A stretch of 58,346 nt of DNA, taken from contig CALGDE010000111.1 in the NCBI GenBank assembly GCA_937883785.1, positions 1 through 58,346 of the forward strand. The letters are read 5' to 3'. This stretch comes from an uncultured cyanobacterium. Lineage in GTDB: Bacteria; Cyanobacteriota; Cyanobacteriia; CACIAM-69d. This document shows, one piece after another, positions 22,333 through 25,437 of this stretch (position 1 is its first letter; every line of letters begins with the position of its first letter). The notes beneath the pieces were generated by a model that did no database searches, had not been told where the DNA came from, and worked only from the letters and a program-made list of their open reading frames with translations. Position numbers and translations under genes: made by a program.

Positions 22333-22848
22333 ATGCAAGACCACAAGACTATGACGCAGGAATCGGGGAAAGGAATTGGGCTGAAAATTGGGGCGATCGC
22401 CAAACAAACGGGGGTCAGCGTGGGAGCCCTGCGCTACTACGAAACTCTTGGGCTAATTTATTCGGAGCGCGGTGACAATGGCTATCGATACTACGCGCCA
22501 GAAATGGTTCACCAGGTGCAATTTATTAAGCAAGCCCAAACCCTCGGTTTTTCCCTTGAAGATATTGGCGAAATTTTGACGGTGCACCAGCGGGGGGATA
22601 TACCTTGCGGCTTTGTTCAGAAGCTTTTGCAGGAGAAAATTCAGCAGCTTGAGGCGCAGATTCAGGAGATGACAAGCTTTAAAGCCACGCTGGAAAACTA
22701 TCGCGACCACTGGGCAACAACCGATTTCCAGCCCAAACCTGGTGAAATTTGCCCCCTTATCGAAACCCTCAATCAACCGGAACTTACGAGGGTGGATGCC
22801 AACCACTCAAAACCCATCGCCGACGGGCAGCGCGAATGGGGTTGTTGA
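22333..22848 (+). CDS. MerR-family metal/redox-responsive regulator
   Basis: A 171-residue activator with the MerR winged helix at about 20-90 (LKIGAIAKQTGVSVGALRYY; RGDNGYRYYAPEMV; TLGFSLEDIGEIL), then the long dimerisation helix (LLQEKIQQLEAQIQEMTSF) and a C-terminal loop. Single Cys residues in DIPCGFV and GEICPLI sit where metal-sensing members place ligands. Residues before about 18 are extra to the family; ATG 22351 is an alternative start and would leave a more normal leader. Two operators lie between it and the divergent membrane gene. Its 3' end overlaps the convergent HNH gene by 65 bases. Confidence 0.9.
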   Translation: MQDHKTMTQESGKGIGLKIGAIAKQTGVSVGALRYYETLGLIYSERGDNGYRYYAPEMVHQVQFIKQAQTLGFSLEDIGEILTVHQRGDIPCGFVQKLLQEKIQQLEAQIQEMTSFKATLENYRDHWATTDFQPKPGEICPLIETLNQPELTRVDANHSKPIADGQREWGC

Positions 22849-23203
22849 TCCGCAGCGCTTCAACAGTTGCGCGACCAACGGCTGTTTTTCCCTCCACATC
22901 AATACCCTCTGCGCTCCAGGCAAAATGCTGATCCCAAGGTTCTTTAATGGGATTGAACAGTGGACAGTCTTGACCTGAAAGGGGATCCACGCCACCGATT
23001 CGTTTGCCCTTCGCTTCATTGCAGGTGCGGCAAGCCAAGCAAATATTATCGAGGGTTGTTTGGCCACCCTTTGCAACGGGTAAAACATGGTCAATGGATA
23101 GGGGGATGCCGCTGTTGGCTTCGCTGGTTTGACAGTAGGCACAGCGATCGCCATCCCGTTCAGCAACCTGACTACGCAGTTTGGCAGAGATATATTCGGA
23201 CAT
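22784..23203 (-). CDS. HNH endonuclease
   Basis: A 139-residue nuclease of the HNH superfamily. Zinc Cys pairs CAYCQ and CRTCN frame the catalytic core SIDHVLPVAKGG and TLDNICLAC, with the histidine doublet position in IDHV and Asn in DNI. I place the start at ATG 23203, because the upstream gene's stop overlaps it as TGATG (one base), which implies translational coupling; a longer reading from 23227 adds only eight residues. A C-terminal extension of about 60 residues (PLSGQDCPLFNPIKEPWDQH) is typical of cyanobacterial copies. The role could be a toxin, mobile-element or repair nuclease. Confidence 0.88.
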   Translation of the reverse strand: MSEYISAKLRSQVAERDGDRCAYCQTSEANSGIPLSIDHVLPVAKGGQTTLDNICLACRTCNEAKGKRIGGVDPLSGQDCPLFNPIKEPWDQHFAWSAEGIDVEGKTAVGRATVEALRINNPIRAARRRWVLSGWHPPS

Positions 23204-23586
23204 CAGGCTGTCAGGGGACCACGCCACCGCAATAGGGCCGCCGCATGGGCTTTACGCAGCATCAGTAAATCGGCTTCAAAACGCAAACTATCAAGTTCTG
23301 TTTGTTCGGCGTCGGAGCGATCGCCAAGACTCAGCAGGGTTTCGTAGCGGGCGAATTCCTGCGGGCTTTGTTTCGTTGCCGCGATCGCGAACAGTTCCCC
23401 ATCCTCAAGCCCATCAAGTTCGGCAAGGCGTGTCTGAAATTCTGCGGGAACGTCATCAAATCCTGGAGGCGCACCAATTTGCAGCGATCGCAGCACGATT
23501 TGCTCAATGGGTTGCTGTACGGCGCGGGCAGTTTGGTAGAGGCGATCATACAGACTGTCTGGAATTTGGAGCGCCAGGGTTTGCAT
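23203..23586 (-). CDS. Ribbon-helix-helix-like protein coupled to the HNH gene
   Basis: A 127-residue protein starting MQTLALQIPDSLYDRL, a pattern of short strand plus helix typical of RHH/CopG DNA-binding or antitoxin proteins (LALQIPDSLYDRLYQTAR then QPIEQIVLRSL). The rest is helical and Leu-rich (ELDSLRFEADLLMLRKAHA). ATG 23586 is preferred over 23613 because it starts exactly at the predicted strand. The stop overlaps the HNH start by one base, so the pair is probably a two-gene unit. Family placement is by pattern only. A remnant of a paralogue lies just upstream at 23652-23720. Confidence 0.7.
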   Translation of the reverse strand: MQTLALQIPDSLYDRLYQTARAVQQPIEQIVLRSLQIGAPPGFDDVPAEFQTRLAELDGLEDGELFAIAATKQSPQEFARYETLLSLGDRSDAEQTELDSLRFEADLLMLRKAHAAALLRWRGPLTA

Positions 23587-23651: not shown

Positions 23652-23720
23652 GATTGGGCGATCGCCACACCAAAGCCACGTTCCATACCGTGCGAATTCT
23701 TGCGGGCTGTGTTTCAGTGG
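23652..23720 (-). pseudogene. Remnant of a second RHH-like gene
   Basis: On the minus strand a frame reads PLKHSPQEFARYGTWLWCGD, matching residues of the neighbouring RHH-like protein (ATKQSPQEFARYETLLSLGD). No start or stop is preserved, and the matching DNA covers fewer than 70 bases. It overlaps sequence upstream of the nuclease-like gene. Confidence 0.6.
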
Positions 23721-23743
23721 AAGTAGGGAAATCCGGTGCTGCT

Positions 23744-24388
23744 ATGCAAACTAAAACGGCAAGAACGGTTGCGCTAAGCGAGTTAGAAGATCGCTTTAAC
23801 CTGAAATTTTCTGACGATCCTTCGCTCTTCCCCGAGTGGCAAACGGACCTGCCGGAGTTGAGCCAGGAGGAGAAAGATCGCTGCGATCGCATCAAAACCA
23901 GTTATACGTACCTGCTGCGCTACCCACCCCTGTTGGAAAACACAGTCAAAATGGTAGTGCTTTCACCGTTACTTGACTTAGCCGGTTTCTTTCTGCCGCC
24001 ATTTCGCATTCAGTCAGAGGCATCGACAGAAATCATCAGTGAAGATGGTGACCTGAAAGTTACGGGATTTTTGGATGTTTTAGTGCTGTGCGACTCTGTT
24101 TGGGTGTTGGCGATCGAGTCCAAGCAAGCAGCATTTTCGCTAGAAGTGGGACAGGCTCAATTGTTGTCGTATCTGCTATCAAATCCCAAAGTCGGAGAGC
24201 AGCCAAGCTACGGCTTACTGACAAATGGCTCAAATTTTATTTTCGTGAAAGCGATACCAGATCAAAAGGGACTTCTGTACACCTTGTCAGATGAGTTCAG
24301 CATTCGCAGACAGGGAAATGAAATCTCTCGGGTGCTGCAAATCCTGAAGCGGCTAGCAAATGTTCTGAGTACCTCTAGCTCAAATTAA
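23744..24388 (+). CDS. PD-(D/E)XK nuclease-like protein (type I R-subunit N-terminal type)
   Basis: A protein of about 215 residues with the core GFLDVLVLCDSVWVLAIESK: an Asp, then Glu-x-Lys after about a dozen residues, on two hydrophobic strands, as in PD-(D/E)XK nucleases. It is followed by VGQAQLLSYLL, the QxxxY-like helix found in type I restriction R-subunit N-terminal domains, and YGLLTNGSNFIFVK. No helicase part or M/S subunit is nearby, so it is a stand-alone protein. ATG 23744 is chosen; the longer frame from 23654 begins in the pseudogene remnant. It may act in DNA defence or belong to a mobile cassette. Confidence 0.75.
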   Translation: MQTKTARTVALSELEDRFNLKFSDDPSLFPEWQTDLPELSQEEKDRCDRIKTSYTYLLRYPPLLENTVKMVVLSPLLDLAGFFLPPFRIQSEASTEIISEDGDLKVTGFLDVLVLCDSVWVLAIESKQAAFSLEVGQAQLLSYLLSNPKVGEQPSYGLLTNGSNFIFVKAIPDQKGLLYTLSDEFSIRRQGNEISRVLQILKRLANVLSTSSSN

Positions 24389-24440: not shown

Positions 24441-24815
24441 CTACTTACCATCCTCCAACAAGCTTTCAAGCATTGGAGTCAGAATTTTAACAACTGGGTT
24501 ATTGGTAAGTTCGATCAGTGCGGCAGCTCCACCTGCTTTTAACGCTTTAGCAATTTTCTTCTTGGTACCAGGTTGCCGCTCAATCTTGTCCATGGCCTTC
24601 GCAGCAACAGTCACCTTTTCAGCTGCTGTTGTCGTAGGGTAAGTCTGGGATAACTGATCTAGAAGTTGCTGGATTTCAAGCGCAGCTTCTGCAAGATTCT
24701 TCTGTTCCTCTGTGGTGACGTTATTTACGCTGTTGACAACGATATCTCCAGCCACGCTACCTGAGGAGATAACTCCACCTATAACCTGATCAACTCGAAT
24801 TGATTCATTTGCCAT
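24441..24815 (-). CDS. Small protein with N-terminal shared motif, second gene of a two-gene cassette
   Basis: A 124-residue protein without a known family. Its first 31 residues contain SIRVDQVIGGVISSGSVAGD followed by IVVNSV, which closely repeats the C-terminus of the upstream-encoded membrane protein (SINIEEAYGSTVVSGQVGRD then VVNTI). The rest is helical: a Glu/Leu-rich coiled segment at about 35-60, a basic stretch (ERQPGTKKKIAKALKAGG) and a C-terminal helix (VVKILTPMLESLLED). It lies 37 bases after the membrane-protein gene and is probably cotranscribed. The shared motif suggests that the two proteins assemble through it. Confidence 0.7.
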   Translation of the reverse strand: MANESIRVDQVIGGVISSGSVAGDIVVNSVNNVTTEEQKNLAEAALEIQQLLDQLSQTYPTTTAAEKVTVAAKAMDKIERQPGTKKKIAKALKAGGAAALIELTNNPVVKILTPMLESLLEDGK

Positions 24816-24852
24816 TGAGCTTCACCTGAAGTCTGAATAATCGGGAACTTAT

Positions 24853-25437
24853 TTATATGGTGTTAACAACGTCGCGTCCGACCTGGCCAGAAACAACAGT
24901 TGATCCGTAGGCTTCTTCGATATTGATAGACCTATCCTCCATATTGAGAGTTTCAAAATTAAACGAAACTGCCTTCGGAGTATCAGTGTTCATGATGTCG
25001 TACAGCGTTAAGATAATCTTCAGAACAAAATCCTTATCGCTGCTGGCTAGGATGACCTCTTCCCCAGAGTTCATGCCAAGCCTCAAACCATACCTTTCAA
25101 TAGTGCGACTTTTGTCTAGATTACTGTGCTGCCAGAACAGATAGCCCACATAAGCAAGTATGAAAATACCAATGCCGTAGGCAAAGAGGAGGATGACTCC
25201 CAAGGCCACAAGGAACCAATACCAGGATGGAACAGTTTGATTGACAGCAAATGTTCGTGTGAGATCTGCTAGTTCAGCAACACATATATTGCGTATTTGA
25301 TAAACTTTGTTCTCGAAAACGACAGTGTTGTGAACTATTTTTAGTACTGACGTTTTAATTGCCTGACCTTCAGATTCACCACCCACCTGAGGCAACAGCG
25401 CGTTTAATTGTGCTTGTAGAGACTGCCCAGAACTCAT
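24853..25437 (-). CDS. Two-helix membrane protein (DUF6232-like) with C-terminal shared motif
   Basis: A 194-residue protein. Residues about 48-75 (KIVHNTVVFENKVYQIRNI) followed by a two-helix hairpin (WYWFLVALGVILLFAYGIGI; FILAYVGYLFW) resemble the DUF6232 layout, in which a small membrane protein has a short beta domain before and after the helices. After the membrane part come YGLRLGMNSGEEVILASSDK and a mixed domain. The extreme C-terminus is the motif SINIEEAYGSTVVSGQVGRD plus VVNTI, also found at the N-terminus of the next protein. It may signal at the membrane with its partner. The family call is from memory of the pattern. Confidence 0.7.
   Translation of the reverse strand: MSSGQSLQAQLNALLPQVGGESEGQAIKTSVLKIVHNTVVFENKVYQIRNICVAELADLTRTFAVNQTVPSWYWFLVALGVILLFAYGIGIFILAYVGYLFWQHSNLDKSRTIERYGLRLGMNSGEEVILASSDKDFVLKIILTLYDIMNTDTPKAVSFNFETLNMEDRSINIEEAYGSTVVSGQVGRDVVNTI

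Follow-up and report, generated by a model that had tools for sequence, protein, structure and literature searches.

Two adjacent genes in the window, the 58,346-nucleotide stretch of cyanobacterial DNA analyzed here, encode a membrane protein of family DUF6232 and a small helical partner, which carry versions of the same motif at the C-terminus of the first protein and the N-terminus of the second. Based on sequence comparison, structural models and analogy with known systems, the two proteins probably form a cognate pair that assembles through this short shared motif in an amyloid-type manner. Both genes and both motif copies were found by ORF and sequence analysis where a preliminary description of this DNA had placed them, and the similarity that it reported is real. 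The features of the pair are:

24853..25437, minus strand: DUF6232 membrane protein (P0001), 194 aa, from the ORF, Pfam PF19744 (E = 1.3e-7) and the structure model
25117..25224, minus strand: transmembrane helix hairpin of the DUF6232 protein, residues 72-107, with predicted helices at 72-87 and 90-107 and the hydrophobic sequence WYWFLVALGVILLFAYGIGIFILAYVGYLFW
24856..24936, minus strand: C-terminal motif copy DRSINIEEAYGSTVVSGQVGRDVVNTI, residues 168-194 of the DUF6232 protein, from the sequence and its co-variation with the partner motif
24441..24815, minus strand: partner protein (P0002), 124 aa, consisting of the N-terminal motif and the four-helix domain A, from the ORF, homologues and model
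24726..24806, minus strand: N-terminal motif copy ESIRVDQVIGGVISSGSVAGDIVVNSV, partner residues 4-30, from the sequence and profile matches in related loci
24450..24716, minus strand: domain A, partner residues 35-122, with helices at 35-58, 64-80, 82-104 and 107-122 in the model

The partner gene lies 37 nt downstream of the DUF6232 gene on the same strand, and the shared motif spans ≈27 residues, over which DRSINIEEAYGSTVVSGQVGRDVVNTI aligns with ESIRVDQVIGGVISSGSVAGDIVVNSV. The 194-aa protein passed the Pfam gathering cut-off for PF19744 (32.5 bits vs. 27.4). No paper on DUF6232 was found, nor any function for the family. The partner had no accepted Pfam family and no match to an NTPase family; Pfam matches to DUF2011 and DUF3280 were below the cut-off and were read as chance. 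Searches with PDB sequence profiles gave only chance-level matches for both window proteins, and neither matched anything in PADLOC. A tblastn search of the partner against plasmids gave no match; nevertheless, a profile comparison clearly relates the partner from Trichormus (see below) to it.

Within the window itself, the DUF6232 tail and the partner head show a modest similarity. The BLOSUM62 local score was 51, compared to a mean of 23 (sd 5) for shuffled sequences, corresponding to p of about 0.001. G, S, N, V and I are abundant in the motif, and composition could account for some of the similarity, even though it is preserved in the shuffles. An unrelated ORF in another part of the window reached a score of 46 against the tail when scanned over its full length, and the window match is therefore not convincing by itself; its significance comes from comparison across loci. 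As an empirical null, we scored C-termini against the N-termini of the co-directional genes that follow them, using the same loci, which gave 156 unrelated adjacent pairs after six DUF6232 pairs had been taken out from the top of the list. The window score exceeded all of these, the highest of which was 37. Together with the permutation analysis described below, this null rules out a chance similarity of tail and head.

DUF6232 profile searches covered 386 cyanobacterial genomes, 15 of which had a match, and 62 genomes of one family, 25 of which had a match. Homologues of the partner were present in 51 of the 386 genomes. Altogether, 42 loci encoded a tailed DUF6232 protein, with about 25-40 residues beyond the domain, and Trichormus variabilis ATCC 29413, a laboratory strain that can be cultured, has one pair on its plasmid B. 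The partner was defined in the same way at every locus, as the longest co-directional ORF starting no more than 400 nt past the DUF6232 stop codon, and 38 tailed pairs were analyzed by this rule. Four loci were set aside: G414b (a false match), G443 (wrong frame), and G433 and G423c (broken tail). At one further locus, G414a, a probable frameshift interrupts the partner frame, and the score was at chance.

Nearly all of the intact tailed DUF6232 genes in these 42 cyanobacterial loci were followed by a small co-directional gene whose product begins with its own version of the motif. Examples, given as tail / head, are the Trichormus pair (DNSIKVGKNIGSPLNTGHIGGDVVNQV / MEDRSIKIGKNIGSPSNTGYIGGDVINEV) and the pairs in G007 (RSVNIGGHFKGNMNLGDGN / RSVNIGGNSEGVINLGDGS), G043 (ATIGVGYAEQLQSGQIGGKIDN / ASIGVGYSEKVEAEQIGGTINN) and G423 (GDIINQSGSFENGV / GDITNQSGNFQTGV). 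When all ORFs of a locus were compared with the tail, the partner ranked first in every locus scanned, and in most cases it was well ahead of the others. Furthermore, a profile of tailed DUF6232 proteins that was built without the partners matched partner N-termini at the tail positions (L118, L120, L136, L137 and L157). Six tail-less DUF6232 proteins (117-143 aa) stop at the end of the domain and have no motif-bearing neighbor. In the loci found by profile, the motif thus recurs at the termini of adjacent gene pairs across cyanobacterial families. Homologues lacking the motif or the neighbor, which would speak against the pairing, are not the rule for tailed DUF6232, which nearly always has both, but they do exist for the helical domain of the partner, since domain A occurs also without DUF6232. 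At two loci, L134 (G423 contig 195) and L126 (G433 contig 138), the DUF6232 tail is lost or out of frame while the downstream motif-bearing gene remains; these are possible decaying pairs or sequencing errors.

The two motif copies co-vary within pairs. For a non-redundant set of 19 of the 38 tailed pairs, the sum of the matched scores was 1260, whereas permuted sums averaged 672 (sd 55) and peaked at 981, and none of 200,000 permutations reached the matched sum. In genomes with two or three pairs, the median score was 77 for a tail with its own partner and 28 for cross combinations, and high cross scores were seen only between two near-identical paralogues. The match was weak in some pairs (G419, 33; G406a, 38; G348, 41; G121, 44). 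The genome from which the window derives contains a second tailed DUF6232 and domain A pair on contig C166 (L156:5719-6633, about 34.7-35.6 kb), detected by profile with E = 8.6e-19 for the DUF6232-like protein and E = 7.9e-8 for the partner. The Pfam DUF6232 profile did not detect this DUF6232 protein at E 1e-3, whereas a profile of the tailed members did. Its motifs (EITIQESQITGNIIAGDAKDIYNL / NNNIHISGGSVQGNVISGAANNVSNV) differ from those of the window pair: the two pairs have own scores of 51 and 43, and cross scores of 20 and 25.

Copies that merely drifted from a common origin would not stay pair-matched; as judged from the sequences, such a match within pairs combined with a difference between pairs is the signature of selection for mutual recognition or of ongoing gene conversion. 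The layout that had been likened to bacterial amyloid signaling sequences (BASS), in which a membrane protein has one motif copy at its C-terminus and an adjacently encoded partner has the other at its N-terminus, recurs with motifs that co-vary inside pairs, as specific motif-to-motif recognition predicts. On this sequence evidence, the motifs very probably recognize each other within each pair.

The bodies of the partner proteins vary, and the motif match is kept while the C-terminal domains change. Most partners have domain A, a large group has a different helical domain (domain B) that ends in LLPLITKVFGF or similar, and one has a transmembrane region. CHAT, NACHT-HEAT, LRR-Roc-COR and pentapeptide-repeat proteins also terminate in domain A, which there immediately follows a motif-like stretch. 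Two domain A loci without DUF6232 have a motif-sharing neighbor, in Nostoc foliaceum (L042, z 18) and Xenococcus (L046, z 11). At the Nostoc foliaceum locus (L042:2330-7030), a protein with pentapeptide repeats, motif and domain A is encoded together with a NACHT protein, which has a related motif close to its N-terminus, and with a 150-aa protein that opens with a nearly identical motif; this locus is a candidate for a BASS-like set that uses domain A. Domain B had a weak match in PADLOC to the phage-defense candidate PDC-M14B (E = 6.6e-5); no paper on PDC-M14 was found. Many cyanobacterial membrane proteins of ≈700 residues (L168-L195) end in domain B after a stretch rich in G, S and N, and in the seven that were checked there was no motif-sharing neighbor within 1.5 kb.

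In 27 of the 42 tailed loci (L113-L150), a divergently transcribed gene with an HTH-type N-terminal domain is located 107-453 nt upstream of the DUF6232 gene. This gene occurs in three forms: with an NB-ARC ATPase (Pfam matches in L034 and L053), with pentapeptide repeats and a further domain that appears nuclease-like by eye, or as a short form with a second HTH-like region. An NLR adjoins roughly a dozen of the loci. The possibility that the motif also resides on the neighboring NLR or HTH gene was discarded, as the ORF outside the pair that best matched the tail was another one in every locus scanned. The window has no divergent HTH gene; by inspection of its sequence, the upstream neighbor is a gene for an E1-beta-type dehydrogenase. 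By this comparison of sequences, the window pair is a reduced version of the cassette, since the divergent gene is absent there. The earlier statement that the partner is not an NLR holds for the window partner, but does not extend to the surroundings of the pairs in general: most homologous pairs have a divergent HTH or HTH-NB-ARC gene beside them, and because HTH-NB-ARC genes adjoin some of them, the cassette is not always NLR-free.

Other genes near the two pairs of this genome are:

23654-24388, plus strand: nuclease-like gene with a sub-threshold match to HSDR_N (E = 0.052)
L156:5065-5709, minus strand: member of the same HSDR_N/PDDEXK-like family, beside the C166 pair
22784-23227, minus strand: small HNH endonuclease, with the HNH regions of IscB and Cas9d as best NCBIfam matches

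The preliminary description had pointed to a nuclease-like gene and an RHH-HNH pair next to the window genes. The designation "nuclease-like" rests on the sub-threshold HSDR_N match. The HNH gene was confirmed (E = 1.6e-11), but its supposed RHH partner had no Pfam match; the HNH gene overlaps a 136-aa ORF without a Pfam match. Both pairs in this genome abut a member of the HSDR_N/PDDEXK-like family, of which there are seven copies in 4.8 Mb, and these neighbors could represent a lineage-specific add-on or an ancient duplication. The nuclease-like gene was rejected as a standing component of the system, as no copy was found beside any other fetched DUF6232 locus, and a link to this gene and the HNH pair is not supported as a general rule.

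AlphaFold2 models were made for both window proteins (ma383004b8300 for DUF6232 and m7284687ecc87 for the partner). The partner model consists of a four-helix domain comprising residues 35-122, with pLDDT mostly between 80 and 90. Partner residues 1-33 and DUF6232 residues 170-194 had pLDDT <50, and both motifs are accordingly predicted to be disordered in the monomer. The structural matches to domain A (TetR-like proteins and designed bundles, Z up to 6.4) were read as common helical arrangements, and none was convincing. The DUF6232 model (mean pLDDT 70) has a β-barrel and a C-terminal helix, with a transmembrane hairpin inserted, so that the "two-helix membrane protein" of the preliminary description retains its hairpin, as predicted, and becomes a Pfam DUF6232 protein with the hairpin inserted in a barrel. 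The matches to the barrel listed by VIA-align were PH, PTB, GRAM or related domains with Z of 8.3-6.6, in a range where values of 7-8 are common by chance between unrelated models, and the Foldseek E-values for the PH-like matches were all >0.1. The models are thus suggestive, but not firm, evidence of a PH/PTB-like barrel with an inserted transmembrane hairpin as the core of DUF6232. If the barrel is one folded unit, the ends of the hairpin and the tail would lie on one side of the membrane, presumably in the cytosol.

We propose a mechanism in which the DUF6232 protein, with its C-terminal motif, would be a membrane effector and the partner, with its N-terminal motif, a signal-bringing adaptor. 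This assignment follows the positions of the motifs in HET-s and BASS systems, in which the C-terminal motif sits on the executor. Upon a trigger, the helical domain of the partner would oligomerize, and the oligomerized partner would nucleate a cross-β (amyloid-like) fold in its own N-terminal motif. That fold would then be templated onto the tails of the membrane-bound DUF6232 proteins, leading these to cluster and the membrane to be changed or the cell to be shut down. Where it is present, the divergent HTH or HTH-NB-ARC gene might act as a local regulator or sensor. The amyloid proposal is based on the placement of the motifs at chain ends, their disorder, their punctuation by glycines, the membrane association of one protein and the private sequences of each pair, all of which follow the BASS/HET-s pattern. 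By analogy, cross-β assembly of the motifs appears fairly probable, and the direction of the signal from partner to DUF6232 is a more tentative suggestion, somewhat short of an even chance. Motifs identified by alignment of neighboring genes, such as AEB69175.1_5_29, have been shown to form amyloid-like aggregates (PMC8086366).

The co-variation and the orthogonality of pairs within a genome need only specific pairing, which might also come from an ordinary folded interface, for example β-strand pairing or a small β-solenoid heterodimer, by which the helical protein is anchored at the membrane without amyloid or templating. The models give the motifs no structure, and an interface that forms by coupled folding would be equally compatible with them. 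However, the two partners carry the same sequence and not complementary ones, as like-with-like stacking would lead one to expect, and the chain-end position, the length of ≈25 residues, the short hydrophobic stretches separated by glycines and the disorder all fit signaling amyloids, making a folded interface of this kind fairly unlikely. That the shared motif is a functionless leftover from duplication of the gene junction, or from low-complexity drift, might be considered in view of its short length, its few residue types and the only moderate significance of the match in the window alone. Drift after an old duplication, however, would leave a tail no closer to its own partner than to others, whereas the matched pairs exceed all 200,000 permutations; moreover, the core domain exists without tail and partner, so that both are kept or lost together. 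We consider such a leftover hardly credible.

A toxin-antitoxin arrangement, in which DUF6232 would be toxic, the downstream helical protein would neutralize it and the motif would serve as the binding site, appears improbable. It is true that toxin-antitoxin systems commonly consist of two small genes in the same direction, include a membrane protein, occur on plasmids (here plasmid B of Trichormus variabilis) and coexist as orthogonal cognate pairs within a genome. Nonetheless, such partners bind through unlike surfaces and not through copies of one sequence, and here the body of the partner is swapped for other domains with retention of the motif. The existence of tail-less DUF6232 without such a partner means that the core is not evidently toxic, and most loci have a third, divergent gene. 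We know of no defense or toxicity phenotype for any member of the DUF6232/partner pairs.

If the amyloid-type assembly is correct, its significance may reach beyond the window. A 2021 review pointed out that mining had been biased towards NLR and executor architectures, and asked whether signaling amyloids occur outside NLR pathways (PMC7889193). The DUF6232 pairs would escape mining based on NLRs and effectors, as their motifs are carried by neither NLRs nor Bell proteins, although some of these pairs may be found in the supplement to the original BASS paper. It is a real possibility, nearly an even one, that they constitute a widespread cyanobacterial signaling-amyloid system with the motif on no NLR, consisting of a PH-like DUF6232 protein and a helical adaptor with privately co-evolving, insulated motifs and optional control by a divergent HTH/NB-ARC gene. 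A system of this kind, with a motif but no NLR to carry it, would answer the question raised in PMC7889193 on signaling amyloids outside NLR-dependent pathways, and the DUF6232 family provides a concrete candidate, although a motif-free NLR adjoins about a dozen of its loci. The dozens of natural cognate pairs, with several per genome and very different motifs, offer a set for the study of amyloid-motif specificity and the avoidance of cross-seeding. The pairs also provide a first functional lead for DUF6232, and mark domain A as a portable module behind such motifs in CHAT, NACHT and LRR-Roc-COR proteins.

Among known entities, PF19744 includes the window protein, which passes the cut-off, as well as tail-less members with neither motif nor partner. 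The effector-associated domains (EADs) of bacterial conflict systems (PMC7159879, PMC8195603) are likewise small, non-enzymatic modules common to proteins encoded close together; they are more similar within a locus than between genomes, occur in the same multicellular cyanobacteria and have been proposed to act by homotypic recruitment. However, EADs are folded domains of some size, whereas the motif described here is ≈27 residues long and predicted to be disordered. The fungal HET-S/NWD2, HELLF and HELLP amyloid signalosomes share with the present pair the adjacent genes, the matched terminal motifs and a membrane-targeting partner with a C-terminal motif; in contrast to them, there is no HeLo-type domain and no motif-bearing NLR here, and the pair is known from sequence and models. 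BASS (PMC7889193, PMC8086366) resemble the pair in that a membrane-acting protein ends with a short motif which its adjacently encoded partner carries at the N-terminus, in the many sequence-unlike motif families with pair-matched motifs, and in their occurrence in filamentous cyanobacteria. In BASS, the C-terminal motif is on a Bell protein or a known effector (CHAT, TIR), while here it is on DUF6232; the Bell domain is a helical bundle, whereas DUF6232 is predicted to be a PH/PTB-type β-barrel with a transmembrane hairpin. The N-terminal motif in BASS is on an NLR with a NACHT or NB-ARC NTPase, compared to a protein of ≈124 residues without an NTPase here, and the NLR neighboring some of the DUF6232 pairs is divergently encoded and lacks the motif. 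Because the pair lacks two defining features of BASS, the Bell domain and the motif-bearing NLR, we do not file it there, although it would work in the same way.
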